The notes beneath the pieces are model-generated. The model was not told the DNA's origin. It saw nothing but the letters and a program-made list of their open reading frames with translations, and made no database searches. A stretch of DNA of 64,000 bases from NCBI GenBank assembly GCA_950295325.1, contig OX485809.1, forward strand, positions 5,084,001-5,148,000, read 5' to 3'. This stretch comes from Polytrichum commune (lineage: Eukaryota; Streptophyta; Polytrichopsida; Polytrichales; Polytrichaceae). Numbering within the stretch: position 1 is the stretch's first letter; every line of letters starts with the position of its first letter. Positions 23,501 through 64,000 of this stretch are shown piece by piece. The position numbers and the translations under genes are program-made.

Positions 23501-23538
23501 CTGCAAGCACAAATTTCAAATTAGAAACAATATGAAGT

Positions 23539-23564: not shown

Positions 23565-23689
23565 CTAGCAGGGATAGAAGAGCTAGTTTGTGTGAGTGAA
23601 CTGACCTTCCAAGCCTGAGTTTTTTCTGGGTCTGTTGAGCTGCCAGAGGCGTTCACTCGCTGTTTTTGTGGCCTATTTAACTTCACCCA

Positions 23690-24404: not shown

Positions 24405-24448
24405 CTCACCTGCAACATGCACAAATCAGTTAGTAAGTAGGTTGGGGT

Positions 24449-31575: not shown

Positions 31576-31931
31576 TAATCTACAAAATTGCTATAAAATG
31601 TGTCTAATATAGTATTCGACCCCAATGTCATATATTTTATGAAAAACCAATACACATTCAAATATCTTTGGTCCAAACCTACGTCAATATCATTCACCAT
31701 CTTCATCTTCTGCTTCATTCCCATTCTCGACATTGTTTTCTGCAGCAGCAATACGTGCCAAGTTGTCTTTGGCAAAATCTATATGTTTTTGGGAGATGGT
31801 CATTGTTTCAGTTTTGGAACCTTTGCGTGGTTTCCAAGCACAAAGTATGGTATCCGTGTTTATCCATATTGGTTCGTATGCTGAGTCCATTGTCCATTTG
31901 AAACATTTTTTCGTGTCCCACCCTAAATATG

Positions 31932-31947
31932 TGCGGAGCTGCGGAGC
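31932..31947. repeat. 8-bp duplication breaking the transposase-like gene
   Basis: TGCGGAGC occurs twice in a row. One copy restores the reading frame from NVL through RTYLGWDTKK. An 8-bp duplication in a coding exon is what excision of an element with 8-bp target duplications leaves behind; replication slippage is the alternative. Confidence 0.85.
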
Positions 31948-33294
31948 ACATTTTGATCTTTGGTGCTTGGACGGCAATATTCCACCTCAATTTGACGAAA
32001 ATTTGGGCTAGTTGGAACAAAATTTGGTGATGACAATGCTTTCACCAACCAAATCGGTTTAGGATGTTCCTCATCTCCAGGACGTACGAGGACCATATAA
32101 CCTTCGTAGCAATCAATAGCCACACGAAATGATGGAGCCGGGCGATTACGAGCAGGGCCAACATAATGGTCGTCCGCCGCGAACTCTTCACGGACGTCCC
32201 CATTGTTGAAGAACATGGCCTCAGATTCCACGATTGTCACTCGGCTTAGTGGCCAAAAACCTTGTATCAAACATGATGGTCTATCGTCTTTGGGTGCTAG
32301 CAACGCTGAGCGGATGCGATCCCAATACGCAATCAATGGTTCGTGGGTATCCCGAACACGTCTTGTGATGTCTTCCTCGCACAAATCTTTCCAGTACTCG
32401 ATGAATCCAGATATACCTTTGATGATTTCTGGTCCATTCCTCATGGGGTTGGGTTTGCAGGGCTTCGGCTCCCCATCAGGTAGCATACATTTGCCATCTT
32501 CGTTTTGGCGCCATACGAGTATCCCTTCCTCTGGGCCCCAATTCGGGGAGGTACACAAAACTTTGAATTGCATGGCCGGCAGACCATCATCACGCATATA
32601 GAATCGGAATTGTTGAGCCTTAGTATGGCCCACTAAGCGGTCACCTCCCTTAAGAATGAATGGTTTGATAAACGATTTGAAATCGGGCACTTTTTCAATC
32701 AAATGCGGGATGACTGGCACATTATCCAAATCCATGTACGATTTCATGAGAAGAGGAATTGTGGGAAAATCCTCCTCGTGCAACTTCATACTCCAACGTC
32801 CGAATGAAGCGTCAATGTCATCGTGCGTGTGGCCAACCATCAAAAAAGACACAAACACTTCTTTGAAAATGCCCTTGGCTACGAGCAATGACCAAAAACA
32901 AAATACGTATCGACATTTGTTGTCCTTGGCACAATTATCAAGTTGCACGTGTAGAGTTGGAGGCAAAGGTTTAGCAAGAACGGGTTGTTCAGGCGGTTCT
33001 TGCAGTGAAGATAGGCAAACCTCCTTCCCCTCTAGCACAGCCTCATAAATCGGTGTTGTTCCACATCCAACAAAAAGAGCACGAGAGGATGATGTGGGCG
33101 GACTCTCAAGATCTCGTAGAAGTTTTGCAAAAGACCCTACGGTATGATTGGCGTCGCCAGGATAGAAATCCAAGCCATAATGTGCATATTTCACGTCCAC
33201 ATGACCATGTGCGATCATACCTGCATTTAGCCACACAAATCGTATATATGAATGAAATTCAAAAATTTCCCCAAGCAAGCAAAAAAATGTACAC

Positions 33295-33315
33295 TTACGG
33301 ACGTACATCCGTAAA
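33295..33315. repeat. family-A palindrome variant in the DUF7869 gene intron
   Basis: TTACGGACGTACATCCGTAA, the family-A palindrome with a changed centre, inside the 33368-33221 intron. Confidence 0.8.
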
Positions 33316-34916
33316 TCTTAACAATGAGTATGTGGGCGCGCAAAAAATAAATGTGAAAACCAACAAACCTGTGACAGATATTGGAAGCTTGAAATATCCA
33401 TCTGTAGCCTTTATTTTCCGCGCATAACAAGGGCACGCCGTCTTTGCATGGTCCATTTTGTCATGAATGATTGTCAAAACCTCATTCGGCCTCATTATCG
33501 ATAATGCGCGATTCTTGTAATAGTCTTGACGGTGTGCCTCCTGGTTGTTGACATGCTCAATGTATTTCAGTTGATATCGGTTGTGGGACTCAGTCCCAAT
33601 GGGATGTGCATCTCGAAGGCCTTTATATTTCTCACAAGCAGAACACCTGGCAAACTCATCCCCAGGTCTCTTCGTAATGTATTCTGCGAATTGTTGATTC
33701 TTGATCATACTCAATTTTGACAACGAAATCGGCCCACATCCAGCATTTTCGCCAACTTCATTAACATCCATAAGTATGTTCTTCCATTTTGTCCCTGTAG
33801 GCAAAACCATCTGAACAACCTTTTCCCCCGACGGCAGAGTCCGCGTCTTGTGTGGCATCGCATCTGCCAATGGCATAATGATGGTTGATAGTGTTGCGGC
33901 CGCTTGGAGTGTTGCCTCCCTGGGCTTCTTTGTGCCAGAATTGCCATGGAACCGAGAACGGCGTCCTTGCATCGAGTAGTTCCGGAACCTATAAAAATCT
34001 GCCTTTAAAACTGCATGTATAATGTACCATGCCTTGCAACATATCTCTACATTTTCCAAGGTCACAACCTTACGACCTTCGACATCAAGGTGCATGTTGC
34101 GATGGACTTCAAGTTTCTTTGCAGATCGCATACGAAAATCCGCGAGCCACATCTCTTGTCTCAAAGATTTGATCTTGTCACGGGGAAATAGTTGGCAACA
34201 TCTTTTTGCACAACAATTCTTTGTTGCTACGGACCTAATAGATGCATCTCCCAATGTTTGATCTCGACGACGTTGCGTGGGTTCACGAGGCAAACGAAAG
34301 GAATCATATTTACGCCGACCTATTCTAGGGCGCGTTGTGGAGAACAAAGCCGATTGCATTTGATCAAAATGGCGGGAATGATTCCACAAGCTAACACCAT
34401 CATGAAGAACACTGCGCAACGGCCATCGACGAAGAGAGAATCTCCAACCAGAAGGAACTTCCAACGGATGTAAGGAATTCAAAATGCACACCCCCACATC
34501 TTCTTCCCCAAGGGGATTTGCATCAATACAATCCATAGGATTCGAGTTCCGACAAACACCATCGGCCACGGGGATGCCACATCCATTGACTAGGACAACA
34601 TCAAGATCAATCCACTGCTCCCGCGAATAACCCTCACATGGTGGAAGGAATTCATCCTCTACATTGGCGACACCAATTGTAGTATCTTGTTCCACGACAA
34701 CTTCAAACTCGCTATCATAGCTTGACGCTTCCGAAAAAAATTCAACCGCACTATCATCGACGTTGGAATCCATGGCCACTACAAGAAAGCCCAATGAAGA
34801 GTATGTCAAAATATCCCATTCAATAAATGTCATGGATAGCCCTAACGCTTATTATTGTCAATGAAACACAATGTGAACAATAGTTGATATCATGGCTTGG
34901 AAACAAAGACACATTG

Positions 34917-35751
34917 GTATACGAACGTGCGTCCGTATACCTCCATGTAACAACATTAGCAGCGCAATTACACGCGCATACGGATACATTTATGTGTTCA
35001 TAGTCAGCAGAAAGGTGATGACAACCAAAACACCACTGGTTTATGGACGCGCATCCGTAAATCGGCTCGTGCACATAGTGCAGTATCATGCTAAACCACA
35101 ACATAGGTATACGGACGCGTGTCCGTAAAAATGCAGTCCTAGACATGGAGGTTCAGGCAAGCAAGAGGTCCTGGCAACACGGCCATGTATACGCAGGCCT
35201 GACGACACATGAAATTTGAAGAGGTTATTATACGCGCTTCCTAGTATGTTCTATCAATATCAAATATTATACTATGACACATAGGGTGATGTAGGCTAAG
35301 GGATGCGATCTCCCAACCCTTCATGACCGTACAGTCTCTGTGCAATCCCCTACATGGCACATGGACAACATCATGGCAACAAAGGTTTCCAGGTTTACGG
35401 ACGCGCGTCCGTAAACCTCTGTGGACCTCTGTACTAGCCTAGATACGATGTATAACGCGAAAAGGGGTTCACGTTTTACGGACGCGCGTCCGTAAACTTC
35501 CATGGCAATATATTCGCATTGTGGTACTCGACACGACACGTGGTTTAGGTGACATACAGACACGACAAGACACGTGGTGTAGGTGACATACAGACTCGAC
35601 ACGACACGTGGTGTAGGTGACATATGGCACCAAAGGTATGGAGGTTTACGGACGCGCGTCCGTAAACCTCAACATACATGAGTATTGGATCAAACAAATA
35701 AAGGTTCAAAGAACCAATATGATTAAGGGTTTACGGACGCGCGTCCGTAAA
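34917..35751. repeat. family-A palindrome array upstream of the DUF7869-type gene
   Basis: Seven palindromes with half-site TTTACGGACGC: 34917-34940, 35040-35061, 35107-35128, 35394-35415, 35475-35496, 35645-35666 and 35730-35751. Those nearest the gene are degenerate; the four distal ones are perfect 22-mers, often extended by matching AGG/CCT flanks. The array starts 144 bp upstream of the start codon. Sequence between copies is unrelated apart from ACACGACACGTGG-type repeats at 35530-35610. Confidence 0.93.
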
Positions 35752-38700
35752 CCTCCGTGATTTGCGGCGTTAAAATAGGAACATTGCACCAGAAAGGATA
35801 ACTGTCCGAAATAAAAATCCAGCACACTACAACGATCCGCAGAGTGCAACCCAAATACAAACTCTCTACCCTAATGGGTTCAGGGCTTGGGGTTTAGTGT
35901 ATAATAGGTCCATGCAATAGGATCTTTACCTGCACAAAATCTGTAGCAGGAGCACACTACAAGGGTCCAAGAAGCGCAACCCACAGCTGAGATGCAAAAA
36001 GAGTCCCGACGGTGGGGGGGTGTCCCCTTAAGTACTGATCGCTTTCCCTTGGATCCGTTTTCCAACATAGGATACCAGCCACCAACTATGTCCTATAAAT
36101 ACAAACCTAACATTACTACATTCCGTGTGCCAGCCTTACAATGGAATGTGTATTCATGTGCACAACATGCATAGACCATGAGTCCACATAATGACAAAGA
36201 AAAAGGCATCTATGTATTTGTGGTATACAACAAAGTAGATTGGCTAATATTATATGAGCAATAAACATTGTTGAGAGGTGATTTATTGGAGCAATAATAT
36301 TGGAGTACCTAATATGAAGAGTACATTTTAAAAAACGTAGACAAAAAATTATACAATCGTGTGAAAAATCAACCACAACAACAACAATAGTACATGGAGT
36401 ATAAAAATACATGTAATCAAAATTAAATTAGCAACTACTTTATTGTTTTGCATACAATGTAATGGTATTGACCATAATATCATGCTATCTCCTCTCATCT
36501 TGCATTTAATATTATAATTACATTGGCCACCACCTAACCATCCAACATTTTTAATTTACCCACCTATACACACCTATACATAATTGTATTCATATCTAAT
36601 ACAGAAACTTTGATTACCATAAGGCCATGATAGTAGCACATCTATTGTCCTAGGTAACATAGGTTTAATTAAATTCAATATTATCAATTTTCTCTCTAAA
36701 CCTTAGGGGCCCCTTCCGTACATCAACATTTACTTCAAAAAAACTAATTATACTAGCCTTCTTCATGTACTATACGTGAGGAAAAACATATTTTAGTACC
36801 TCATGTACATTACCTACATTAATTAATACTCAAACAATACCAATTGTTGCTCGAAGTAACATTATTACCCTCAACCTTAAACCCTATAACCACCCAAACC
36901 TAAACAAACATGTGGATATAGAGATGCAAGCATGGTTAACGGAACAATTCCTGATACATGTCAAGGCTTAACTGGAAAGTAATTCAAACCAAGCAAGCAA
37001 ACAATTATACCAATTGTTGTTCTACGTAATACTATTAACCCATAAAATATAATGGACAGAATGGGAGGGTAGGGTATCCAAATAGTAATAAGGCAACCAA
37101 TATTAAGTCGGTGACACAAGGGGGATACCCTTAACCCTAAACCCTAAACCGTATAAACGACTCCCGACTCATGTCAAGGCTTAAAATTCTCTAAAACAAA
37201 ACCATAAAGATTTCAAAAGTCAAGCAAATTTATGTTCACAAATTATTCTTGAAGACATGGTAAGTGGTGAAAAAGTAGGTGACATAGAACAAAGATTTAT
37301 CAAATTGTGAATGGCAATCCGATATGTGGTCTTAATTTGGCTAAGGAAAAAGGTACTTGGGTTGCGTAACCTTACCTTTCATTTTTTTAATCTATGTTTG
37401 CCTGGGTAAAATCCACCCCTTAGAGGCAAGTACAAGATTTAGCCGAGACTTGTTATTCTTTGATGGGATACAATATGAAAACAATTAAGCCTTCAAAACA
37501 TTTAAGATCATGAAAGTTATGTTCTAAGTCATATTTATCCATTTGATTTAAACCTTTACTTTTGAAGATAGGTTTTGAACATCATATATTGGTATTCTAT
37601 AATCGAATACTTAACACAACCATACATGTCGCCATGGAAACAAAACTCCAATATAAACAACAATTTGCTACTACTTATAGGCAATAATACAAGCTCATGC
37701 CTAGGTTTGGAAGGATTGCATAAATCCTGAAGGTTGTTTAACGGACAAGAGGGATGTAAATTCAACACCTACCCATTCCTTTTGTTCTAATACAAGCTTA
37801 GACGTAATATGTGCAGAGGGATTGAATTAACCCCTAACGTTGTTTAGGATATTATAAGCATTTGATCTTAACCCACATTATCTCGATGTTTGGTTTTGTT
37901 AATTGTGTTTCAAACATGCTTAATTTAAATATCATTAATAATGATATTCACATCAAAGCATCCCAGGTGTCCAACTTCAATAAAGTCCCCAAGTTGCTAT
38001 TGATAGTATAATTTAGGTTGAAAATCCCCTTTCACAAATTATTGCGATAATTGAGGGATTCATAAGGGTGTAGGGGTTTAGGGTTAATTGAATTTTTGGC
38101 CAATGGGTATATTATTGTCCCAATTGCATTTGAATCCCACCTTTGTGGAAAAAATATTATACTTAACTTAATCAAGAAGACATACTTTATATTCAATATT
38201 ATTACTATTCTCAAAATATAAAGTCCCCTCCATACCTGCTACACTAGAAATGGTATAATTTAGTTTCACTGATTGTTTGGAGTTACAAAATGCTTTGTTT
38301 TTTTTATTATTGATGTTATTTAATTAGAGCATTGAGATTCCTTTATTTTTGGTCAACAATTGTTTTTGGTATTCGTTTTTGGACTCAAACCACATACAAT
38401 CCATCCTCTATAAATGTTATGCTCTGGAATATAATTTTCCTTACATTTATTGTGAGTTAACATTGTAACAACTATAAAGGGAGCTTTTTGAATGCTTAAC
38501 AAATTTGATTCATTACAATTATGAAGGGAGAGTTTTGTAAAATTATCAAATATAAAATATGTGTATCAATCACAATATAACCCATATTAATAATTTGATC
38601 ACAAAAGTCAAATTTGGTGACTTTTGCCACTTTGAAAGGTTGTGACTCAATGTAATGGATGTCATCTCACAATATTGGATGTAGTTCGTAGGTTAACATT

Positions 38701-41700
38701 TATAAGTGGCAAATTAACAAAGAGGGGAATAAATTATTCTTAACATGTAACAAAGTTTACATTCTAGTTAGCAATATGAGAGGAGTACGAATTTGTTAAC
38801 AAATACAATTATGAGTTAACATGTGGAAGTGTAACATTTATCGAGGGTGGACTCTAGCAATCACAAAAAAGACCAATAGACATATGCCACGTAAGGGTTA
38901 CATGTGGCCTTTGGGCGCGGGGTGATGGGACGTCTAGGTAGGGAGTGGATGCGACGTTTAGGGTTTAGGGTTTCGATACACTCCCTTGTTCATGCTCCTT
39001 TCGCTTTTTTTCTTCTCATTTCGCTCATTTCGCTCCTTTCCTCCTCGCCCACCACCGCTCCTTTGCTCCTCGCGCTTGCTCCTCGCCCTTGCTGGTCGCC
39101 CTTGTTGCTCCAGAGTATTCTCCTCCTTCTCCCTTGCTACTATTGTTGGTCCTCTTTCTCCTCCTCCTCCTTCTTGTTGTTTCTCCTCTTTCTCCTCATC
39201 CTTGCTCTTAGTTCCATAAGAGCGCCAGGAGCTCCAGGCAGGTGCTTTTTTCTTTCCCTCTTTGAAAGATGTGCTATTCCAGGTGCTAATTGATGCACCC
39301 CATGGGTCGTTCCCTTGCAATTTAGCTCAAGAAGACTCACGGTGAGACATCACGTAAATTTATATTCGCTTGAGAACTACCGTGCCTCATTAATATGTTC
39401 GGTCTCTAATTAATAATCCCTCTCTTCTCCTTATGATATGAATATAATTATTGGAGTGAACACAATCTCATTATCTTAATTCTTACTCACAATGTAAGGC
39501 ATCATTGATAATAAGAACCATTAGATTTAAAGAAAGCTTCAAGAGGTGTAACAATATCCTTGATAATAATATAGTATTCAATAAATTGTATGAATCCTTA
39601 ATGTTAGTAGTTCATAAACATTAATCACACAATTGATAATAATTTTATAATGATGAAGAAGATCTAATATTCTTGAGTCTTCATTTTTAAACTCAAGTGT
39701 TACTACTTATAATATTGTAACTTGACATGTATGCATATAGTAGTTATAATTTCATGAACACATCATTGATTGTTTTGCAATGTCACGTTTAACATTCAAA
39801 GTGTTTTAATGACAAGAATAATTATAACTCTCTTGAGGTTTATTCAAGAGAAAGAACTCCTCTTTGATTGTTAATGACATCCAACAACTCACAAAGTATC
39901 TTAAGAGAAGAAGCACTTTTACTACAAAGTGTTTCTTGATGACGAGAAGATGAACCCATCTCTCTTGAGTTTTGCTCAAGAGAGAGAGAGATCTTCTCTT
40001 GAATAGATAATCCTTCCAATTGTAATGACATCCAACAACTCACAAAGAATCTTAAAGTAAGAAGCTTCAATAACAATTGTAGTAAGTGGATTATCTTATA
40101 TCAATATTACTTCATTCATATGTATTCAAACTTTGCTATGAATTAATGTCTTCATCATTCTTGTTAATCATAAGTTCAACAATCAATATGTAGTATAATA
40201 TGTATAATACTTATAAGTCAATTATGTAGTTTTCAATAATAAGCTCCTCCTCTTTTGAAGGAGTTGCAATCGTTAAGTTGTTTTGCTTAAATCATAACAT
40301 GCATATAATTCTTCAATCATTCAATCACATGTATATTTATAATTCCCTTTTGAGGAGATCAATGATAAGTTCCACTTTGAGAGATAATCTTGTTTCCTTC
40401 ACTCAAGTTAACAATCGCTTTCTCAATTCAATCTCTCTCAAAGTCCCATTGATTCTCCAATTTGTCTTGAGCGCTTTGTTCTCACCCTCACACTATCTTT
40501 TGAGTTCTTTCTCAAAAGAGCCTACTCAATCTACTCTACTCTCGGTTGCTCAATCACTTAAGCTACAAAGTACCATTGACGACTCGTAGTTCAAATTGAG
40601 AGAGGTAGAAAGATCACACGCATTTGTAGAAAAGATAAGTGTATTGCAAAAGTTCCTCGAGATGAGAGTTACAAAAGCTTCAAGTGATTATTGACACTCA
40701 AATTTAAGATAACTTCGTTGTGTAGAAAATGAGGTAAAGGTCTCCTAATTTGCTTCCCTTATATAGTCTTTTCTATCTATCTTAAAATCTATACTAAGAG
40801 TGGTTGTTAACTTCCACTTTCCTAGATAGCTATCTTTCTTCAACATATGTAGATGCTATCTATCCTAAACGGTTATAACCGTTTCACTACTCTAATGTTC
40901 TCAATACTAAGATTTCACCATATCCTCCTTGAGAGTTAATCAAATCCTCGTACTTGATTGATTCTATTCCGGTGATTGATATTTAGAACATCCATTTAGA
41001 ATGTACCCTAGTCCTATATTCTCCTTAGTGTCTTCATAATGTCTCTTGAACTTTATATCCAAAATTCCCATATATTCCATAATCGTGCTTCATCAAAATC
41101 CTACATTCTAAACTATTCCATAATCATGCTTCCTTGGATATTCAATGCAATCCTAAATACATAATTATGTCTCTTTTATATCCCTTCATCCTCAAAATCC
41201 TATATTCTAATATATTCCCTATACCCCTTAATATGCCCTTTAATATTCCTTTAATACCTCCCTTAATATGCACCTCTAATAACTAAGCTCTCTTTGTAAA
41301 GGAGCTGGGTTTCCTATTTCCGTGGGTAGCGGACCCTATCTCCGCGCGTAAGTCGCGCATTGCCGTGGAAAAGGGGCCCTAAGGCCGTGGCCGCCTCCAT
41401 GGCCAAGCCCGAGGCCGAGTTCCATAGCCGAAGTTGAGAGCTTCTAAGTTCTTCTTCCAATTTCGGTGCCGCTCCATGAATTGCCTCTTGCTTGCTAGTA
41501 CCATTAGTTGCTTGAATGTGTTTTGCTCCTTAGGTCTGTGTTGATTTATAGTACCATTTGTACCTTGAATATGTTGTACTCAACACTAATTAGGTGATTT
41601 GAGTTTATGTATTGATGCACAAGAGGAGGATTGTGAATATTGTGTGAGTATGCAATGTTTTGTTGCACTCACAATTGCAAGTAACATCAGAAATTGAGTA

Positions 41701-42343
41701 GTTTTTTGCTTGCAGTCTCATTAGGACATTAATGGAGTAGTTTCAGTTGTTGCAAGGGTTTTAGGGTTGGAGTATTTTCAGTTGTTCCAGAGTGCTCCTC
41801 CTTTCAGTTTGTAACTGTCTTCACTTCACTTGAATTCACTTTTTCCTAGTTCTAAGAAATCATGTGTTTTGCTTTGTTCACTTCAATGTGATGTTCATGT
41901 TCAATCCAGTGCAATCTTTGTAGTAGGGGTTTTTTTGTGGGTTTGATGCATTTGAGGAGCAACACACAGTTTAGTTGATTCTTGAATGTGCACATTGCAT
42001 TACCAGAGGTTTCTAACTTCAAATTTAGTGTTATTTTGCAGTCTCTCCTAGCTGGAGCTGTGGTTTAGAAGCAAACATTGTACAGAGGTAAGTGTTTCTA
42101 GTACATTGCAAATTGAAATGGAACATTCTTCTTAGATTGGAATGTAGAATCTGCTATTGCAATGCAACACCTGATACAGTCTAATTTGGAGTGCAAATCC
42201 ATGTTGCATTCCAAGTTAAGATGAACATTGCACATGAATGGAATGCAACAAAGAAGCTGCTCCAAAAATTTCGGAACAATATACAGAAACACATTAATTG
42301 AGCAAATTAATTAAATTCAGAGTAATTAAAAAATGGCCTGAAG
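35752..42343. other. AT-rich region without a convincing gene
   Basis: About 6.6 kb between the two family-A arrays. Contains a short CCCTAAA tract (about 37131), a CT-rich low-complexity block (38980-39230), a duplicated ACATCCAACAACTCACAAAG word (about 39878 and 40028) and a GC-richer block near 41300-41450. Frames such as 38904-39293 and 40278-40589 are low-complexity or unsupported. Confidence 0.45.
38980..39230. repeat. CT-rich low-complexity block
   Basis: Polypyrimidine-rich repeats of CTCCTCGCCCTTGCT and CTCCTTCTCC words. The frames read Leu/Ser/Phe-rich on one strand and Glu/Lys-rich on the other, as expected of simple sequence. Confidence 0.8.
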
Positions 42344-42966
42344 TTTACGGACGCGCGTCCGTAAACTTCAGGGAACCCTGGGAATATGCATCGCACTAGG
42401 TGTGAACAGTTTACGGACGCACGTCCGTAAATTTTAGATATATTTAAAAAGAACTATTTAAAAACATGAATGAGAAGTTTACGGACGCACGCCCGTAAAC
42501 TTGAGATATATAAGTATACTAAATCAAATACATGACAAATGTGCAGAGTTTACGGACGCGCGTCCGTGAACTAGGCAGAGAAAACTATGAAAATCTCAGA
42601 GTATAATACATGTCATGGGTTTTCAAAATAAGTTCTACAAAATATACAAGTTCTACACAACAAAAATAAATTTATTTTCCAAAAATTTACGGACGCACGT
42701 CCGTAAATTAGGGCTATATTATTATAAAAAATATATTATATTCATGAAATATAGAAATAGAGACTTTTGGATGATATATGTGCAGAGTTTACGGACGCGC
42801 GTCCGTAAACTCTGCACATATATCATGAATGAGATTTCTTTTTATAAGATATATCAAGTTTTACGGACGTCCGTCCGTCCGTAAACTTGATATGTACTAT
42901 ATAATAATACTTAACCCCATTCCATAAGAAAGGGTACGCAAAGGTTTACGACTGCGCGTTCGTAAG
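42344..42966. repeat. family-A palindrome array upstream of the 43-kb gene
   Basis: Eight palindromes: 42344-42365, 42410-42431, 42478-42499, 42549-42570, 42686-42707, 42788-42809, 42860-42885 (expanded centre GTCCGTCCGT) and 42945-42966 (degenerate). Steps are often 66-72 bp. The copy at 42788 is the core of a perfect 56-bp palindrome (42771-42826). The array ends 54 bp before the start codon at 43021 and may include its promoter. Confidence 0.93.
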
Positions 42967-43020
42967 ATAGGCTCTGCATCCCTAGACCTTAATACTGACT
43001 TGTATATTTTACATTTGCAG

Positions 43021-44307
43021 ATGGAATCTACAAAAAGACCCGCTATTGATATATTCGCAGAGCTTGTCCATCCTCCGCTTCCAAAAGCAATTAAAGACAT
43101 AAGCCACAACGACCATTACAAGCCACGCGAAGACATCGTAGATAACTGGACAGTTATTGTAGAAAAAGATGAAAATGATATATTTGTCCTTAGATTTGCC
43201 TATCAAATAAAAGCAGATATACATGAATCCGAGAAGTGGATGAAGGTTAAAAGCTGGACAGTAGAGTGTGCGGTAGCCCAAGGCGATTATGTTGTCATGG
43301 ACCTTGAAAAGAAAAATGATAGGATCACAATCATTTTGCACGAGTTGTACCATCCGTTCAACAAAAATGAATGTGAAAATGCCAGCCCAGATGCGTCTTG
43401 CTTCAATCTACAGAATGAATTCACTGACTATGCTTGCAATGCACCCTGGACGGGTAAACGGCTTGGTCGTCTCTTGAACAATGTGACAAGAGTAAATGGG
43501 GCCTTACTGGAAGCGAAGAAAGGAAAGGAGAAAAAACCAGTTCCTGAACGACCTAAACGTGTTCCTAAATACGTGCCAGAAGCCTCTAGGCCCTCACAGA
43601 GTGGAACATCAAGAGGGAGCAAGCAGGCCAGTAAACGCTCTCACTCACAGATGGAGTCATCTGGGCTAACAGAGGGTCCAGATGTGAGTTCTACTCTTAC
43701 AGTCGCCCCACTTCTCAAGAAAGGACAACGCCCGGACGCGGAACTATCCACAAAGATTTTCCAAGAGTTCGACGAGAAGACAAAGGGCTGCTGGCCACTT
43801 GGAAGGTATTTCACGTTTGATGTGGATGTATACAAATGCCACAAGGGCACGGAGAGTATGAATACTCGTGCCAAAGAAGAGAGCGGGGTGTGGTGGCAAA
43901 TGAATAACATTATGAACAACCCCAAGTTTGATAGGCAAACGATATGTGTGACACCAAAGGATCATGTGGTTGAAGTCACAACGCAAAATTGGCCAATCCT
44001 CAAAGATGGAGAGTTCTACATAGTCGACGGCCAACATAGCGTGATGGCTGCAAAAGCTCTCCTCGAGGACGATGAGTGAAAGAGTCCTTTGAAAGAGACA
44101 ATCCGATACTGGAAGGCATTTGTCGTCCATTCCAAAGACTCGAACCAGCTCATCGCAATATCTGCCTTCATGAACCAAGGGAATAAAGTGAGGCAGTTCG
44201 AGGCTTCATGGGCTGCCAACATCGTGGCTGGAAGGACCTTGTGGGTGGAGCACGATTGTCCCCCAAAATAGAGGGAGAATGCAGTCATCAAGAATCCCAA
44301 ATGGCAG
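43021..44307 (+). CDS. N-terminal and ParB/DGQHR-type domain exon (copy 2)
   Basis: The ATG is the first triplet after a TTTGCAG acceptor, implying a 5' UTR intron. Residues 1-170 are the domain shared with copy 1. A Pro/Ser/Lys linker follows (about 170-225). From about residue 255 the ParB/Srx-like domain reads CWPLGRYFTFDVDVYKCHKG ... GEFYIVDGQHSVMAAKALL, with the signature Gly-Gln-His at about 337-339, then after an in-frame TGA YWKAFVVHS and AFMNQGNK, the usual positions of the last strands and the Asn-rich helix. A second stop (TAG, 44269) precedes the end KNPKWQ. ParB/DGQHR domains bind DNA or CTP or act as nucleases; the role here is unknown. Confidence 0.7.
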
Positions 44308-44324
44308 GTATGTCTCTGTATATT

Positions 44325-44346
44325 TTTACGGACGCGCGTCCGTAAA
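44325..44346. repeat. family-A palindrome in intron 1 of copy 2
   Basis: A perfect 22-bp copy in the 113-bp intron 44308-44420. Confidence 0.92.
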
Positions 44347-44420
44347 CCTCTTCCTCCTTCCCATTCTTTAATTCCTTCAATTTAAACTCTGCTGACTTCT
44401 TGAAATGCATGGCTGTGCAG

Positions 44421-47379
44421 ACATTCAGCAATGCGATCTTGACAAAGTTCTCCAGCATTGACCTGAAGACGAGCGGCATGAAGACGGTGCAGGAGTTGAA
44501 GGGGGAACTTAAGCTCATCACTGCCACAGAAGAGACATGGGCAATTTGGTTGCGCATTTTCGATGCTCACAACAATGGAGACCTTATCAACCCGGATGCT
44601 GAAAACACGTACAAGAGCGACTCAAAGGTTAAAGTGCCACCTATCCTGAGAGAGTTCTTTCGTCCCCTCCAAGGATTGCTCGACTCCGAGCTTTACAGAG
44701 CGGCACAACACATCCTGTTGGAGACTCCGAGGAGGACACTGCCCTACCCCAAAATCTTCCTGAAGCGACCAAAGCACATGAAGCCTTCTACATACCACAT
44801 TAAGGAATGGTGCGAATACAGGAAGAAGAAGACCATGGCTATAAGGGAGATAAGTAAGCTGCTGCCCTCCCACAACCTCACTAATACAGATGGGGAGATA
44901 ATGTGGGAAAACTGGAGGACGCTCAAGGAGGAGTATCACATCAATGGGGTCTCCATGCGATCATTGATAAGAGGCGCATCTCCCTTCCTAGCCCAAAGAT
45001 CTAGGAGGAACGAGAAGAAAGGGTCTATCGACGAAAGAGAGACGGCGTTGTACGTCCATTTCCTTGACAGAAAAAAGAAAGCAAAATTCGGAGGGGTCGC
45101 AAGATTCTGCACTGTTACAACGGCCTTGAAGTTTGGCACATGGGACACACATGCTTCAAGAGCCTCTGTGAGAGATGACCCCCGGGGTTGTCCGTTCGCA
45201 CTCTTTGATTTCCGTGCATTTCCCGGATCTTGGAGACAAAACGCTAGCGGGACCGCTTTCTATGACAACTTCTTCAAGGCCTTCAAGAGCTATCGGTCGC
45301 CTGCCCTCTTCGAGCCAAATGTGTGGCTCTGGATCGTAGATCAAGAGAGGTCCGCGTCGGTCGTCCAGCTTTACACATCGACGATGAACCTCCAGTACGA
45401 TCTTCACCACAGCACATACATCCCCGCGAAGACGGAAAGGATCAGTGTTATTGAAGAGGCAAGAGGGGCGAAGCAGGTCGGGGCTTTGGCACTTTATTTC
45501 TTGACACACAAGTCTTCACCAAGTGGGCGGATGCCTATCAAAGCGTAGAACGTGTTCAAGAAAGTATACTCATTGCCACCACCACACCCAAAGGAGCTTG
45601 TCGCGGAGACTATGTATGCACTCTACCCGGCGTACGAACTCCGAATGGATTTTTATATTGGAGTCTTGAAGGTTGTGACTGTGATGAGTGAAACAGTCTA
45701 CAACGTCTTCGGAGGCACCAAATTTGTTTACGCGGCATTGGTAAGTACTTGTATGCACCTCTTTCCATGCTCCATCTGAATTGAAATTTACGGATGCGCG
45801 TCCGTAACATTGCCCACCACATATGCAGTGCAAATTTACGGCCACGCGTCCGTAAATTGCAGTGCTTCATGATTATATTTGTCCTCATACTTGCTCGCAA
45901 CAATGGAATAACTATAATTTCCTTGTTTTGGTGCAGATGTTTGGGTTGCAGGTAAATTTGTTTGTGGAGGCTCGCGACATGGATGAGGCGAATACTCATA
46001 GGGTTCTTGCCTCCAAAATGGATATTGAAGACATCATCGATGTCCTTACCCCCCATCCTGTGGTGCCTCTTGCCTCAAGAGAAGAGGGAACTCCTGCGAC
46101 GGAGTGGGACAGTGACGGAGACCAAGAGCCCGTCTCCCCAAGAGAGCAGCCACCCAGAGAAGATCACGTGCCCGGCCTTGTTCGTGATCCTGTTCATCCT
46201 CATCAATTTGTCTTGGGCGAAGACCGCATGGATACAGAGGGGGCGCATGAAGACTTCACTCCAATAAGGGTCCATCCTACCCCTATTTCCTCCCCCTTTG
46301 GGACTCCCACTTCTCGAGTTGGGTTTCCTTCCACTGCGGGTCCATCGCGTGCTGTTGGGCTTATGACAGAGAAGGATGTGGACGTTGCGACAGAAGCCGG
46401 ATGCACAGCCTCATCTGGAGGGGGATCTGAACATGCAGAGCTACCACCTATGGAGGGTAGAGATGTGCTGGAGTTGATTTTGAGGCCGGATATCGCCTCA
46501 TACCGTGAGAGTCGTCGACAGAGGAAGAAGACTCCTTACAACGAGTACCCTGAAGGCGCCGTCTTGGAATTCTCCGATGAAGACGAGGATGAGGTTAGGA
46601 TGTACCATGCCCTCTCTGCCTTGCCTTCTGAACCTGGCAAGGTGAAGAAAGAGCCGATGTCTGTGGCCGAATTGGACGAGAAACTGGAGAAGAGAATGAA
46701 GGAAGAGCTTGACCAACGGCTTCGAGAAGCTAACGAGGAGCACGCCAGAAAGATGGCCGCCATCCAAGCTGAGATGGAGGAGGCTAGGTTGGAGTCTGCT
46801 CGAAGGCACGCCGATCTCATGGCTCAAAATCAACAATTCTTGGCCCAGAGCCAACAATTTATGAGCCTCATGCAGAGCTTGCAAGCAAGACCCCCAGTAA
46901 TGTATGCAGCTCCCGAAGCCTGCATGTCGATGCCTCCCACTCTCATGCGGCCTCCGTCTAGTAGCCATACGGTGTACATACCAGAGCATACCTATCCAGC
47001 CCCCGCCTTGTATGTCCTGCCCTCTCCCCAGGTTGCCGACACCCCAGAGCCCTCCTCTCATAGCGTACGAGAGGAGGAGAGACCTGCACGTTATACGGCA
47101 GGTGCTCACGAGAAAGGCGCCATTGAAGACATCACAACCATTGGCAGCCAAGAAGATGAAGATATGCGGGGCAGCCAAGAGGATGAACATATGCGGGGCA
47201 GCCAAGACACCACAGATGAAGATCAACCTCATGTCGATACCCAGGGGTCGCAAGCGGTTGGAGGCGCCTTGGTGGTGGAGGATAGCATGCACAATTTTGC
47301 GGACGCGCGTCCGGAACCTGTGCCCACGATGGGGCCTGGTGAGGGAGGCATTGCTGGCGAGGACCTCTCCGTTGAAGAG
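44421..47379 (+). CDS. MTase-like fold, coiled coil and acidic tail (copy 2, exons 2-3)
   Basis: Exon 2 opens with the helical region (LKLITATEETWAIWLRIFDA, EWCEYRKKK). It then has a motif-IV-like FDFRAFPG (about residue 692 of the model) followed by VWLWIVDQERS, and after the TAG at 45546 YELRMDFYIGVLKVV and the motif-I-like NVFGGTKFVYAAL. Intron 2 (45741-45936) falls inside this loop; exon 3 resumes MFGLQVNLFVEARDMD. The order IV then I is beta-class. DPPY/W is absent. Exon 3 continues with a coiled coil (about 46680-46880, EELDQRLREANEEHARKMAA), a Gln/Met-rich run, Pro-rich sequence and acidic GSQEDEDMR repeats. The same order occurs in copy 1. Confidence 0.6.
45787..45856. repeat. two family-A palindromes in intron 2 of copy 2
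   Basis: Copies at 45787-45808 (one substitution in the left arm, GATGCG) and 45835-45856 (GGCCACGCG centre). Confidence 0.88.
47296..47317. repeat. family-A palindrome inside a coding exon
   Basis: TTTGCGGACGCGCGTCCGGA lies in frame in exon 3 of copy 2 and encodes FADARPE. It keeps the symmetric GGACGCGCGTCC core. Confidence 0.85.
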
Positions 47380-47407
47380 GTAATCCACCTTTGAGCTTGC
47401 CTCCCAC

Positions 47408-47429
47408 GTTACGGACGCGCGTCCGAAAC
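47408..47429. repeat. family-A palindrome in intron 3 of copy 2
   Basis: TTACGGACGCGCGTCCGAAA, shortly after the proposed donor at 47380. Confidence 0.88.
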
Positions 47430-47719
47430 TTCCTTGTCTGCCAACTTCGTGGCGTGTACATATTGTCGAGTTCGATGCTCGACTTTGCCCGGCGGGTGGA
47501 TGCAATTTTGCCAGCATAGATTCAATTAGTTTTAGGGGAGACCTTTTGTGACAATGTAAATTATTCGCGAAATGTATTAAACCAATCACATTAATACAAA
47601 TTTTTTGAACTGCGTATTCGTATTTTTTTTGCCTTATATTTGTTTGTTGAGTTTGTGCATGCTTGTCAATTGGTTTTCATGGGTAGTACCATTCACCTAG
47701 ATAGTATTTTCCATCACAG

Positions 47720-48487
47720 GGTCCGTCGGAGATATGTCGCAACCCCGCTGAAAGACCAAGCCGGCCCATGAGGAAACCGTTCATAATATTTGACCTCAAT
47801 GGGGTGCTTTGTCATTCCATGCATATCTCCAATAGTGCGTCGAAGGGTCCCTTCCGTAGTCCACAAGACATGGATTACGGCGGACAGTTCGATACTCTCA
47901 TTAACAAGAAGGTTGTACGGGCCCGGCCGAGGTTGAGGTGCTTCCTTCGTGATGTCCTTGGCTTGGCCCATGTCATCATCTGGAGCTCTATGCTCATGGA
48001 CAACACGAAGGCCATCGTCGGTTTCCTTTTCCGAGAACTCGCAATGCCATGCTTGCTTCTCGGTCAAGAACACTGCGATGACCTTTATGACCGTAATGGC
48101 AACATTGTACCCAAGGTCGGAGGAGGCCGAGGGCCTCAATTCCTAAAGGTACTGAGGAAGAACCTTTGGGTGGGCGTCCCTATGTTGGAGGGGGTGCCCC
48201 ACGGTTGTTGGCCCACCCCGGAGAACACGCTCCTCATTGACGACAGCCCGGCAAAGAGTATTCTCAATCCCCCGGGCAGTTGCATATTCCCGGATCCTTG
48301 GGAGAGTGATAGAAATGACAACTTTCTAGAGAATGAACTAGGACCCTACATTAGGAGGCTTGCCTATCACCCCGGAAGTGTCCCGGATTTTGTCCTCTCC
48401 AACCCCATTGGCAATAGGCCTCTAGGCCCAAGAGATGAGGAATTTAGGAGGTTGTACGGCTATGCCAAACTCAATAAATTAATATGA
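47720..48487 (+). CDS. FCP1/NIF-like HAD-fold domain exon (copy 2)
   Basis: After a CATCACAG acceptor the frame reads GPSEICRNPAERPSRPMRKP and runs 768 nt to TGA, the same length as the copy 1 exon. Motifs: FIIFDLNGVLCHS (motif I with the nucleophile Asp present and the second Asp replaced by Asn), RPRLRCFLRDVLG, VIIWSSM (motif II), LLLGQEHC, and TLLIDDSPAKS followed by NPPGSCIFPDPW (motif III and the FCP1-type tail). A plant clade of FCP1-like proteins also has DLNG, so a host origin of this domain is plausible. If the upstream splice is not used, the ATG at 47768 starts a 239-residue stand-alone protein. Confidence 0.78.
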   Translation, partial: GPSEICRNPAERPSRPMRKPFIIFDLNGVLCHSMHISNSASKGPFRSPQDMDYGGQFDTLINKKVVRARPRLRCFLRDVLGLAHVIIWSSMLMDNTKAIVGFLFRELAMPCLLLGQEHCDDLYDRNGNIVPKVGGGRGPQFLKVLRKNLWVGVPMLEGVPHGCWPTPENTLLIDDSPAKSILNPPGSCIFPDPWESDRNDNFLENELGPYIRRLAYHPGSVPDFVLSNPIGNRPLGPRDEEFRRLYGYAKLNKLI

Positions 48488-48575
48488 GAACTGCTTTTTG
48501 GGTTTGTACTTGGACTCTCCATGTTTATATCTAACATTTCTCCCCGTATTTTGTAAATGTATTTTTGTGTCTTAG

Positions 48576-49450
48576 TTGCCTCACCAAGCATCCCAAAGTC
48601 TCGTCCATGGCATGTGTGCATTTAAACCGGGCCCCAGCTCCCCTTCCATCGGTGTGACCGACATTTCAATGCCTTCACTATTTCAATTTTCAGCCGTCGA
48701 TGCCGCCTCTGCTGTTGATTACTCCAAAGACTCGGGGTTTGAAGACGGAGTTGTCGATAGCCCTCCTCCAAAGGTTGCAAAACTCAATTACGCTCCATCT
48801 CCATCTCCATCTCCCCTCTGCAATGAGAAGCACGTTCGAAACCCGCGGTCGACTAGACGCCTTTGTATGGATGAACCCCAAATTGATGTCCCGGCGTTTA
48901 CGAGCGTCCCTGTTGTGCTTGTGGCCCCCCTCGATCTCAAACCACCGCCCCGCAGGCCAAGGTGCCCAATTATTGGCATTCTCAAGTTTTTCCTTCATGA
49001 TATCCGTGCATTAGTGGATTTCATATTCTTGGGTTTTTCGGACTTCCATCCGTAACTTATACTAACCCACGTCATTATATGTATTTATGTTCATTGTTTC
49101 AGACCCCAATACACATGAATGTGGGCCGTTCATCCTCGACTTCGTCATTGGATAGGCGAACACTGAAGACTGCTTCTTGCGAGTCTGATCGTTGTTTGGC
49201 TCTATGGAAGAGTGCAAGACGTTTGGTTTCCCAAACGCATTCGTATTCCACTTATTCGGTAGGGGGTCGGCAAATATGGGCAAATGACACATATTCGGGG
49301 TCGACAAATAAACAAGGTTACAGCCGCGGACCCGAGATCTTTAGAGCCATGGAGGCCATGAAAGCAAAAGAACGTGAAACGGCCGTAAATGCTAATAATA
49401 GTATTGCAAAAGCAAAAGTAGTGAGTCGTAATCATGATCCGAACGTATAG
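48576..49450 (+). CDS. unrecognised exons downstream of copy 2
   Basis: Two frames: 48576 to about 48961 (Ser/Pro-rich, KDSGFEDGVVDSPPPKVAKL, YAPSPSPSP) and 49103-49450, which follows TGTTTCAG and reads TPIHMNVGRSSSTSSLDRR, then basic sequence with FRAMEAMKAKERETAV and a stop. The junction between them was not resolved because donor and acceptor phases disagree in my best pairing. A degenerate family-A palindrome (about 49036-49055) lies between. No family recognised. Position parallels the extra exons downstream of the HAD domain in copy 1. Confidence 0.35.
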
Positions 49451-50426
49451 GCTATATTAACATACATGTAGTTGTGGAATTATGTTTCTAGGACTTTCGC
49501 CTAATATTGGATATTCCACTTGCATTTTGTACTTCAACCCCTATTCAATAAATATGATATTGATTTTCCATATGCAAATGTTTTCATATATCCCATTTTC
49601 TTATTTTTAATGTGTAGTTCCATGCATTTGAGTCTCTTATTTGTTTCCAAAATTGGGAACATAGCATATTTTTAGTGTTTTCCTTCCTACAAATGTGAAA
49701 GCCACGTCCTTAAATAGTCTCAAAATCAACAAAAAGTCTCCAATTACCGAATATAGTGTTACTCCAGTTTGCTAGGAAATGATTAGGGGTACTACTAGGT
49801 GTTGAATACGGTATGGATGTCCGATCTTGGCATCATTGGGTGTCTATGCAGAAGTTGCTTATTTCAGCCTGGTATTGGGATTTTTTAATTGGACAACTAT
49901 AACCTTGGGCAACTATAATGTACTCTCATGTGGACTCATGTATATTATTGTGTAACATTTGTTCCAACATGCTAGGTATGGAGGAAATTAAGATATTTGT
50001 AGCCTCGATTAGATATTGAATGAATACTCACATTCATATCCAAATGTGGAAGCCACACGCCTACATACACCCTAACCTTGATAATGTCACACCCTCTGTT
50101 TCATCAAAAAGTGTGATATAAACAAGGTGTGACATACTTGATAATGTCACATGTTGTGCATAATGTGATATTATCAAAAAATATGTAGAAAATCAAAATA
50201 TAATTATAATGTGGAAAAAATAACAAATACGAGACTTCAATGTTTTTGAATGTAAAGTCTAATTCAAAATTGTTAATAACAACAAGAGCACATCATAATG
50301 TGTCATTGAGATCAGGTAAAGACCTCTCGCGAGAGACAAAGAAGCTTTTAATGTCACATTGTTTTGTTGATGTTAAATGTGCAACACCAATTCTAATGAG
50401 TTTGTCATGGATTTTTTCCATATCTA
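49451..50426. other. AT-rich spacer
   Basis: Contains a lone right end of the CACTATATTCG MITE (about 49730-49760) and repeated GTGACATTATCAAG-like words (50080-50180). No gene seen. Confidence 0.45.
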
Positions 50427-54549: not shown

Positions 54550-54551
54550 TA

Positions 54552-59534: not shown

Positions 59535-62500
59535 CTAAGGGCTTGGAGAACATTCCCTATCACTCTCCTCACCCTCATTTGCTTCTAACAAGAAAAGATT
59601 TCGTGTTCCACGCGAGAAATGACGAACGCGAGGAGGAGATGGGGACTCCGCCTTCGCAAAACAATCCGCCATTGCACTAGCATACGGGGGAAGCTCAAAC
59701 GGCTTCGGAGGACTTGAAAACATGTCTCGACGAATGACTGCGACCTCCGCTGGCTCTCTAAACACCCAAGCAAAAGGATTAGAAACATGATGACACTAGA
59801 AAATGAGAATTTGAAATCAAAGCAAACATGGCAAAATATAGAAAGCAAACTTACGCACAAAGAAATCCGAATGCCCTCTTGGTCATCTTTTGAGGAGGAT
59901 CAAAAATAGATGTAGACGGTGCGGCAACTGAGCGAGATATACGCGCAGGCTGGGGATCGCGCATGGGGAGTAGGAGTGAATTGAAAATGACGGGGTCACT
60001 CTCAAGGGCCACAATATGCCGCTCAAGGGAGCGACATGCTGTAATCGAACCACCTAAAGCAAAGAGAGGTAAAATGTTAGTATGAAAACTAGTCAAGGAA
60101 AAATAATGGAAAATTCAAAGTAAGGATGAAGTTGAAAAAGAAGGCGTACCTACACCATACTGCCAGTCCATAATAACATCATTCTTGTCGGTGAGAGTAG
60201 CGAGAAGGATGGAAAAAAAAACAGGATGCTTCTCACGGGCACCTCGCCAAGGTACCCCATCACTGCGCATCGTCTGGCTCTTCTCATCGGTGAAGGTATT
60301 CAACCATCCATCTCGTTGGAGGTTGTAACCATACTCTTGTATGGCCTCCTCCCGCACTCTAAGAACGGAGTTAACACGAACAAGAACTTTGATGTTGAAC
60401 TTCCGAGTCTGCAACAATGAAAATGAAATTGAATTGAAATGAAATGGAATTGAAATTGAATTGAAATTGAAATGATAAGCAATACGGAAGGGGAAGAGAG
60501 GGAGACTTGCTTACCACTCCAGAGGGAACAACGGGAGATTGGAGGTCTAAATCATTCATTCCAAACCAATCTTCCGCGACGTAGAAGTCATAAGTGTGTG
60601 CCCAATCGAAAATACTCCTAGAAACACTGGCACTCACACAATGGGCAAGAACAAGGACACCATGATCATAGAGGTTAGATTTCGCAAATGCAAAAAGACA
60701 CTCATAGTATGATTCATGGAGCTTGTTCCAAGCAGGAACATCGGTGGAGATGTTCGACACCGGCAAATTTTCGGGAATGTCGGCGAAGAGCAAATCGAGG
60801 CCCTTGTGAGTTGTAGTCGAGGTGTTCACACAGGAACGACCTACCCCAACCTGAAATTGAAACTTCATGAGAAAACAAGAAGGAAAGAAATAAACAAAGC
60901 AAAGGAAAAAAAATTGAGAATTGACGAAGGCAAGTATACAAACCTTGGCAATGAACTCTTGGATGCGGGTATATGCGGGGAGGGGACCTCCGGTAACCTC
61001 GGAATCCAGCATTAGTTGAACCATGTCCACATTTTCGATGAGGGTAAGCGTGTTAGTGGCATCCGAAGAGGTGGCACTGGTATCCAAGAGAGCGGCCTTC
61101 CTCTTGCGAGGCAAAGAGAGGAGAGAAGTGCCACTATGAGATGGAATGGCAAGAGATTGTGGATGAAATGCAGATGGAGTAACAGAAGGGGCAAGAGAGG
61201 GAGCAACGGAGGGAGCGATAGATGGACTGTGTGGAAGGGTGGGTGGCTCAACCGGGGTCTTAGAAGCAGACCGAGTGAGAATTTGGGAAGATGCTTGAGT
61301 GGCGGTCTTCTTTGCTCTGCCCTTTCTCCTTGGTGCCTTAGGAGGAGGAGGGGGAAGTTCAACAATGTCAGGGTCCTCCAAGGTAACAATGTTATTATCC
61401 AGAGCACTACCCACAAGGCTAGCAAACAAAGCCTTCTCTTCCCCGGGGACAAATCCTGCAGCACAATCCAAGTACCATCCACCACCCTGCAAGTGCAATT
61501 CGGAAAACTTGTTTGTTTGCGCGGTCGTATACACGCAGAGGCTAGAAAAAATATTCACCCAGTCCGAGAGGTAGTCCGGCAAGGAAGATGAGGCCAATGC
61601 ATTCTTCACAACCAATTCTCTCATGATATACCTACATGACAAAACAAGAATGTAAGAAAACCAACAAAACGAGCAAGAAATGACATTAAGGAGAGGTGCA
61701 AAGTGGAGGATAGATGTATTACCGATAGGCTACACGCTTGATAGCGAGAGCCCCCTCCTCGAACTCCAAGAGATTATCACCTTTGGCAAATGCGATGTCA
61801 GGCTTATCGCCGAGATAAGGCTTGAAAGCCTTGTCCCAAAGGACAATCCGCCAATGATCAACGTACTCACGAGGGCGCAAGATAGTTTCTGATGCGTCCC
61901 AATCAATGTCGACGGAGAGGCTCTCCTCTAAGGTCTCAATTTCAACCGCGACTTCTTTCTCCAACTGCAGAGAAGGAGATGATTAGATATGAGATAAATG
62001 GAATAGAGGAAAATGAAAATGAAGAAGGCCGAGGAATGGATTTACTTGAGCCCAGAAGGACGCCTTGTGTAGCCAGTCGTCCAAAGCCCTCTCCCTCATA
62101 GGCTTGTCGACGGGGAACTTGTTATCTAACCTTTCACGAAGGGGGGCGTTCCACCAGTGAAGCCACTTAGCTTTGAACGAAGCTTCGACCGGGCATGTGA
62201 CAATTTTTTGCAATTTTTCAATTGTCATGTCCGTCGAAGAGAACTCATTAAAATGACGGTCAATCTGTGCACAAAATAAAAATGATTTGAGTTCAAAAGA
62301 GTAATAGAGTTGAAGAGTGATTTGGATGAATTGCGTTCAAGAGTGATTTGAGTTCAAAAGAGTACCTCATGAAAGAAATCCTCTCCATTGTCAGGGTGTG
62401 CAACGGATATGTACTTCTCAAAAGAACGGGCCCGAATACTTTTGATTATCCTCTCCTGGGCCTTGGTCATAACATTCCAAATCTCAGTGGCCGACCTCTC

Positions 62501-63735
62501 CGCAACGGGTGTGGTCTCACTGCAAGGTCTGCTTGAGCCGAAATGTCTCTCTGCAAGAAATGACCTTGTGAGTTCATATAATCGGTATGGAAATTATCTA
62601 TGTTGGAAGCTCTAAATGATTGAATGCATAAAATCATACCTTGTAAAGAAACTTAACGAACACATCCGCGGTCAAGGTGTACCAAGTTGGGCGACTCTCC
62701 TTTATCTTCTCGCATGCTTTGTAGTCAGATGGCGATATAAGATCCTTGAAGGTGGACAACTCTAACCTCCCAAAAGTGCGGATTCGAAGGAGCTTGGCCG
62801 GAATGTTTGCCTTGACATAATCATGCTCGGTTGACCTGAGAAAAAATATGTGAGGAACGTGAGCTGAAAAGAATGGAAAAGAATTGAAACAAAAATGAAA
62901 AATGAATGAAAAAAATGAATGAAAAAAATGAATGAGCTTACCAATTAATGTCGCTCATGACATTGAGGAATATACCGGTGTATCCTCTAGGGTCAACAAC
63001 AATGCAATCCACCGAGATATGCCAACTCTTGTCATCGGCGTGGTGGTTATTGATGTGTCTCCACCAAGCGGTGAGACGATGATTGCCTTCCCAGACGAAG
63101 AACATCTTCCCGGCGAAATGTGCAAGATCCGGATCCTCCTTGAGCTTGGCGTCAAATTCTGCGGAGGCCTCTTGCCAGAGAGGGCTCCAAGAGGCCATAA
63201 TGCCAGGGGGAATGGGGAGGTCCACGGGAACGTCGTTGAAAGAAGACACGTAAAGAACCCGATCACCCTCTCGGTATCCCATTACAAATTCACATTCCAA
63301 GCGCTGCACCTCAACCTCACTGATAGGACGGACGAGAGGGAGGGCTCTCAAGCGGCATAAAGGAATGGATAAGCGGGACTTACATGTTGGCTTAATCCGA
63401 AGGCATTGGATAACACCAATGGAGTCCTCCTTTTGTGATTTCCGAAGCTCAAGCTCACACACCACGGGATCCGTGTCGGCAACTGCTTGAACGGCATCTT
63501 CGCTCATTGCGAGAGCCTAACAAAAACACAAACAATAAAACCATGCTTAGAAAGCTAGAACTCAAAAAACTTGCTTAACAAATTATTCAACAACTATCCA
63601 ACTCACCTCTACTTGTAATGGGCCCTGCGAATTGAGACTCTCAACCTGCACAGCTTCAACTTCAACCGCGGGGGCCGCAAGAACAACATCCTCTCCAGAT
63701 TGGGGTTGCGATTGCGCAACCTGTGAAGAGTCCAT
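59535..63735 (-). CDS. ParB-domain / methyltransferase-like protein, 11 exons, apparently intact
   Basis: Exons (minus): 63735-63607, 63516-62942, 62835-62640, 62548-62366, 62264-62046, 61964-61723, 61631-60944, 60850-60515, 60408-60150, 60053-59855, 59757-59535. All boundaries are GT-AG, the phases agree and the total is 3249 nt (1,082 residues plus stop) with no internal stop. The ATG follows a CTTAG acceptor, so a 5' UTR intron is likely. Residues ~90-230 form a ParB-like domain: SIPLCRLRALPLVRPISEVE, RVLYVSSF, FVWEGNHRLTAWWRHI (GNHR at ~187) and VDCIVVDPRG. After a long helical region and a basic, Pro/Ser-rich linker (~600-700) comes a beta-class MTase-like fold: LLFADIPEN in the motif IV position (~765), GVLVLAHC, WRGAREKHPVFFSILLATL, then DVIMDWQYGVGG (motif I) and RHIVALESD. 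DPPY/W is replaced by DIPE. No HAD domain. Weakest junction: exon 4 acceptor (CAGAG). Confidence 0.78.
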
Positions 63736-64000
63736 ATCCTAAGAACATGGAGAAAATGAGAATTTCACAAAGAAAAGTCAATAACTTCGTAACTATAAAG
63801 AAACAAATCCTCACAAAAACAATACAAGGCCGAGAGCAAACTACAAATGGAAATGGCCGAATGCTAAGTCAAGTGCTCAACTCTAGCACTAACCTACCTA
63901 CGAATGAGAGGCCTCGGATCCGAGGCCTCTTTTCCTACCTCCTCCTTATGCACTACCCAAAAGAAAAAGGCCGAGAGAAATCTTATGTGAACATAGCAGT
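63736..64000. other. 5' flank of the ParB-MTase gene
   Basis: Presumed 5' UTR intron and upstream sequence of the minus-strand gene. No other feature seen; no palindrome of either family. Confidence 0.45.

Follow-up and report, generated by a model that had tools for sequence, protein, structure and literature searches.

A probable plant variant of the ParB-methyltransferase transposon-accessory genes, with an altered catalytic motif and candidate palindromic targets

Brown, green and red algae have transposons whose reported accessory proteins join a ParB domain to a DNA methyltransferase (MTase) (PMC12477816). In the 21.5 kb Ectocarpus element Sola1-1_Ec32, a ParB-MTase protein of 1,104 aa is encoded on the strand opposite the transposase and is predicted to make N4-methylcytosine (4mC) or N6-methyladenine (6mA) (PMC12477816). 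Among prokaryotes, the fusion protein Bce_0392 combines ParB with an adenine methylase and has reported nicking activity (PMC5512222). In Arabidopsis, the VANC proteins of VANDAL elements bind motifs located upstream and within introns of the element to which they belong, and trigger a loss of DNA methylation (PMC5735166). Here we describe gene A, located on the minus strand at 59535..63735 of a 64,000-nt stretch of contig OX485809.1 from Polytrichum commune (the whole analyzed stretch, hereafter the window), which is probably a plant variant of this known transposon-accessory kind, since such proteins have already been reported from algal transposons (PMC12477816). The first-pass annotation of the sequence had regarded the pairing of ParB with a methylase as known only from phages and bacterial mobile elements; prokaryotic ParB-methylases do exist, but the pairing is not confined to them, given the algal reports (PMC12477816).

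By description, gene A resembles the algal accessory protein in its size (both about 1,100 aa) and in apparently combining a ParB-like part with an N4/N6 MTase; unlike the algal elements, the locus lies in a plant-like genome, the candidate transposase of the window, in unit E1 below, is a DUF7869 protein rather than Sola-1, and the catalytic motif of gene A is lost (PMC12477816). A NIF phosphatase neighbor and palindrome arrays, both present in the window, are further candidate differences. Bce_0392 likewise couples ParB and a methylase, but it is bacterial, whereas gene A is intron-rich, with long linkers and the sequence DIPE at the catalytic position (PMC5512222). Within the literature searched, PMC12477816 alone describes ParB-MTase proteins of transposons, and what looks new is that the host is plant-like, that the catalytic motif has been lost, that a phosphatase gene is a neighbor and that there are candidate palindromic targets.

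Gene A is very probably a real nuclear gene. Its 11 exons, which from high to low coordinates on the minus strand lie at 63607-63735, 62942-63516, 62640-62835, 62366-62548, 62046-62264, 61723-61964, 60944-61631, 60515-60850, 60150-60408, 59855-60053 and 59535-59757, total 3,249 nt (1,082 codons and a stop), and their in-frame joining, as first annotated, was re-derived here. All ten introns are GT-AG and measure 81-106 nt each, with a GC content of 0.27-0.37 vs 0.47-0.53 in the exons. Using codon usage trained on eight other open reading frames (ORFs) in the window, the best of the three sense frames is the chosen one in 11/11 exons, while an antisense frame exceeds it in exon 1 and almost equals it in exons 2 and 11. 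The acceptors are ordinary YAG at nine introns, with intron 3 as the exception: the frame is kept solely with acceptor TTGCAGAG (62548), that is, with an intron ending in GCAGAG, and the ordinary CAG two bases upstream leads to a frameshift and a stop 27 codons on. The description of the gene as intact therefore depends on this junction; there is no stop across the 1,082 codons, and gene A is very probably intact provided that the GCAGAG junction is used. Intron 9 splits motif I of the MTase-like region, and because splicing rebuilds the motif in the spliced frame, that junction is also supported.

The C-terminal part of the protein, aa 745-1008 (59855..60850, minus strand), was delimited by hhalign profile alignment and by phmmer against PDB sequences and, judging from its sequence, is in all likelihood a permuted beta-class DNA MTase fold. 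The profile comprised 24 diverse viral beta-class MTases retrieved with E. coli YhdJ (24/50 loci, after excluding a duplicate, three fragments and 22 copies that were close to YhdJ), 22 of which were retained by hhalign. Against it, aa 745-1010 scored 34.2 in local and 27.6 in global mode (239 columns), compared with a maximum of 26.5 and 14.7, respectively, among 400 shuffles. In sliding windows, the highest local and global scores were 24.3 (10 columns) and 7.7 for parts of gene A ending before residue 750, and 20.4 and 6.7 for the remaining genes of the window. Similarly, the best phmmer matches were two entries of one adenine MTase of DpnA type, 5hfj (E=0.0097) and 5hek (E=0.01), as well as CcrM (6pbd, E=0.055), and DNA MTases account for 5/7 matches up to E 10. 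The shuffle-calibrated alignment and these PDB matches support the first-pass proposal of a beta-class MTase-like fold with a degenerate DPPY, and each of the motifs quoted for it is present (DIPE 768-771, DWQYGVGG 937-944, E960-S-D962 and, in the N-terminal region, WEGNHR 185-190).

The motifs occur in beta-class order, with motif IV before motif I: the DPPY position, occupied by DIPE (D768-I-P-E771, 60770-60781), then HP, motif I (D937-W-Q-Y-G-V-G-G944, 60150-60168 plus 60053 downward) and an acidic strand end at 960-962. Gene A thereby resembles the beta-class DNA MTases of the YhdJ, CcrM and DpnA type in its motif IV region and HP ahead of motif I, its GxGG and its acidic strand-2 end, and is unlike them in having DIPE rather than DPPY and in falling below Pfam detection. 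Motif I is of the FxGxG type and the acidic ribose residue is kept (DWQYGVGG...ALESD); by the general motif rules, the pocket for the cofactor S-adenosylmethionine (AdoMet) looks retained. The catalytic [DNS]PP[YFW] is absent. Beta-class enzymes require D/N/S-P-P-Y/F/W, and DIPE departs from this motif at 2/4 positions, with Glu replacing the aromatic residue, which disfavors methylation by gene A; by the same rules, base methylation has probably been lost.

The N-terminal part, aa ~75-234 (62942..63423, minus strand), gives a suggestive hhalign match to ParB/Srx-like sequences around the box WEGNHR (aa 185-190, 63076-63093, minus strand), in which GNHR corresponds to GxHR with the Arg present. 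Gene A scored 19.8 against a nine-row ParB profile (9/30 candidates), with 2/300 shuffles above, and 21.0 against a six-row profile (6/15 loci), with 5/300 above, and with both profiles the best alignment falls on the WEGNHR box. We consider it fairly likely that gene A carries a ParB domain.

Two further genes in the window have related features, and one of them lies within a putative DNA transposon. This unit, E1 (18.7 kb, 31063..49761), is bounded by terminal inverted repeats (TIRs) of 28 nt with 93% identity (31064-31091 / 49733-49760); the sequence at 31064-31091, AACACTATATTCG[T/G]TAATTGGA[C/G]ACTTT, is found again in inverse orientation at 49733-49760. On the minus strand E1 encodes gene D (31923..34773), an open DUF7869 protein of 900 aa with one intron at 33221-33368 (Pfam PF25273, E=4.8e-40), which is the candidate transposase, and on the plus strand it encodes gene C (43021..47394) and a NIF/FCP1-like phosphatase (about 47720..48487; NIF 1.4e-11, Pfam). 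A 249-bp element at 6612..6860, resembling a miniature inverted-repeat transposable element (MITE), matches both E1 ends (45 nt at 91%, 103 nt at 80%) and has TACATA on each side, one base out. Together, E1 and the 249-bp element have the layout of a DNA transposon with its derivative MITE; at E1 itself, no clear duplication of the target site was apparent. Like the algal element, E1 is of roughly 20 kb and places its ParB-MTase gene, here C, opposite the candidate transposase (PMC12477816). The second half of D has no relative among viral contigs in a scan that detects close relatives only. A dispersed, partly tandem repeat family flanks E1 on both sides (27612, 30596, 51467 and 53773-54554).

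Gene C consists of a ParB-like part, a middle region and a weak MTase-like part, interrupted by three in-frame stops, and gene B (20243..24404, minus strand) is a decayed relative of it, with tblastn matches in the middle region (1.8e-15) and the MTase-like region (3.5e-6, or 0.099 in the reverse direction). The ParB box of C is clear with both the six-row and the nine-row profile (53-59 vs a top shuffle of 21-23), a score that is favored because the six-row profile started from a phage protein that a search with C itself had retrieved, with the peptide FYIIDGQH among the patterns fetching its loci; the nine-row profile takes 6/9 rows from the same group. At the place of motif I, C has FGGTK. 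The motif IV position of the two genes, as we infer it from their alignment, would be the stretch FLDFRFFPG in B and ALFDFRAFPG in C; DIRN of B had been considered for this motif and was dropped, since the alignment pairs these two stretches. No ParB part was found in B, and no inverted ends were found around it. The B/C alignment has no relative among viral contigs, where only close relatives are detectable; with tblastn against phage records, a piece of C gave no match, and the top match of its ParB piece was a ParB-like protein from a phage at E=0.4.

Both B and C are followed downstream, on the same strand, by a NIF-type phosphatase, that of B lying at 17809..18771 on the minus strand (NIF 4e-7, Pfam), and the two phosphatases are homologous (4.5e-23). 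An in-frame GT-AG intron at 47380-47719 could fuse C with its phosphatase. The first motif of NIF phosphatases is normally DxDx; it reads FDLNG in the E1 copy (47705-48487) and FNLNG in the copy downstream of B, and because of this alteration both may be inactive.

The window is also rich in long palindromes. Counting 20-nt palindromes with at most one mismatched pair and with low complexity removed, we found 32 across the whole window, whereas 20 shuffles that permuted single bases inside 500-nt blocks gave 1-5. Of the 32, 14 are copies of palindrome P2, eight are palindrome P1 or close to it, and ten are single. All 14 copies of P2 (TTACGGACGCGCGTCCGTAA, 33294..47429) lie inside E1. Four of them precede D and one is in its intron; at C, five are upstream, two are intronic (one of these assigned by eye), one falls within the last ORF and one is 3' of the gene. 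P1 (TTCCACTCGATCGAGTGGAA) has four exact copies at 23542..24667, three upstream of B and one in an apparent B intron, and a P1-like copy with three changes lies directly 3' of the last B ORF. Upstream of gene A, 171 nt from its ATG, is a perfect 24-nt palindrome, AGAGGCCTCGGATCCGAGGCCTCT (63907..63930). This distribution suggests an association of the palindromes with the ParB-MTase genes and not with D, because P1 adjoins B and a tblastn search with D gave no further DUF7869 gene in the window. P1 and P2 are arranged similarly to the motifs of the VANC/VANDAL system, where short element-specific motifs are repeated upstream and in introns (PMC5735166). The VANC motifs measure 8-9 nt, and that source never uses the word palindrome (PMC5735166).

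Three other observations concern the palindromes themselves. The gene A palindrome (63907) and P1 (23542) are both centered on GATC within CTC(G)GATC(C)GAG. A perfect 22-nt palindrome, CCAATTGCTATATAGCAATTGG, lies at 59195-59216, ~320 nt past the gene A stop. A P1 cluster at 57724-58293 is set in CA-rich repeats, with inverted arms close by (58334-58366/58494-58526).

From these data we favor a reading in which gene A encodes a protein of transposon-accessory type, with a ParB-like part and a degenerate beta-class MTase fold, that is most likely a sequence-specific DNA binder. The ParB-like and MTase-like parts would together hold a long palindrome, with the AdoMet pocket kept and base methylation probably gone. 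Its likely role would be to bind the control regions of its own element and keep them expressed, either by anti-silencing or by self-regulation, as suggested by look-alike C, which is cargo of a putative transposon where one palindrome recurs ahead of genes and within introns. Gene A could then be the accessory gene of an element that continues beyond the end of the window, or a copy that the host has retained. As a whole, this account of a palindrome-binding, non-methylating accessory protein that keeps its element active is tentative, and we rate it at somewhat below an even chance.

Several results weigh against this account. Regarding the domains, a third ParB profile, of YbdM type (52/72 rows), gave no match to gene A and no significant match to C, whose box is GQHS, with Ser in place of Arg; the ParB domain proposed in the first-pass annotation accordingly stands as suggestive with two profiles of three. 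The AlphaFold2 check proposed for the ParB/Srx fold, run on exon 2 by itself (one sequence), was uninformative (pLDDT 38, model unusable), and a model of the B MTase region from two sequences was also unusable (pLDDT 34.5). Against the MTase profile, B reached a weak 20.2 at motif I, with 2/200 shuffles above, and C scored at the shuffle mean. The full-length gene A protein matched no Pfam family up to E 10 and so lies below the curated family threshold; its single-exon pieces matched no NCBIfam family and no PHROGs family, apart from a single PHROG, of unknown function (E=0.032, exon 9 frame), and tblastn of exon 2 against phage records gave at best E=3. Regarding the link to mobile DNA, no homology of gene A to B or C was detected, either in comparisons of its MTase, middle and N-terminal parts or by tblastn, so that its tie to them lies in a shared domain make-up, as read from sequence. 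A TIR-bounded element with a candidate transposase surrounds C; around A no TIR was seen, with only 265 nt upstream of the gene within the window, and the inverted-end search returned only a 14-nt piece at 56748-56761 that matches part of the upstream palindrome with one mismatch (E=0.38). The palindromes are also an imperfect fit: AGAGGCCTCGGATCCGAGGCCTCT has a single copy in the window, the window count places none within gene A introns, and three P1 copies lie at 57.7-58.3 kb with no ParB-MTase gene adjoining.

The lack of homology to B and C and of a TIR around gene A speaks for a rival reading, in which gene A is an old host gene without any transposon tie and its ParB box a chance look-alike, the match to ParB being at about the 1-2% level of shuffles. 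We consider this somewhat unlikely, as gene A has the same two domain types and a similar size as the Ectocarpus accessory protein (1,104 aa; PMC12477816), and the same 64 kb hold two look-alikes, of which one is carried by a mobile unit and the other is decayed. The first-pass view of a resident nuclear gene rather than contamination fits, in its nuclear part, with the introns, with the lack of a relative of exon 2 among viral contigs and prokaryote genomes (scans that detect close relatives only), and with plant-type features nearby. These include two STIG1-like genes at 596-1135 (plus strand; Pfam 6.7e-13) and 4382-4939 (minus strand; 1.3e-9), as well as interstitial repeats of TTTAGGG, the plant-type telomere sequence, at 23718-23790 within decayed gene B. 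The word resident may overlook a transposon origin, because look-alike C sits in a mobile unit of the same window.

Gene A might instead be a recent pseudogene in which the frame problem at the intron 3 acceptor is a real lesion; by inspection, no CAG or TAG acceptor near exon 4 fits the phase of exon 3 with its GTATGA donor. With that one acceptor, however, the reading frame runs its full length free of stops and scores best in all exons, and the other nine introns have ordinary acceptors, making a pseudogene unlikely. More improbable still is an active DNA MTase that uses DIPE or another residue to mark the element or the host genome with 6mA or 4mC. The kept motif I, acidic strand-2 end and beta-class order are compatible with activity, as is the prediction of 4mC or 6mA for the Ectocarpus protein (PMC12477816), but the replacement of half of the catalytic motif, including its aromatic residue, argues against it.

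Returning to the favored reading of a non-methylating DNA binder, a more specific form of it is doubtful and put forward as speculation: that the ParB-like/MTase-fold protein of plant transposons, having given up methylation, acts as a palindrome-binding clamp that loads parS-like and shields the element from silencing, each element family having a distinct palindrome of 20-28 nt that is repeated ahead of its genes and within its introns. If the favored reading is true, the range of transposon-borne ParB-MTase proteins would reach beyond algae to an apparent land plant, and an MTase fold may persist as a reader after its catalytic motif is lost. The element-specific palindromes would be candidate target sites, making the idea that such proteins bind and modify their own element directly testable. 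The look-alike in mobile DNA suggests that transposons may use proteins of this kind to mark or protect their own sequence.

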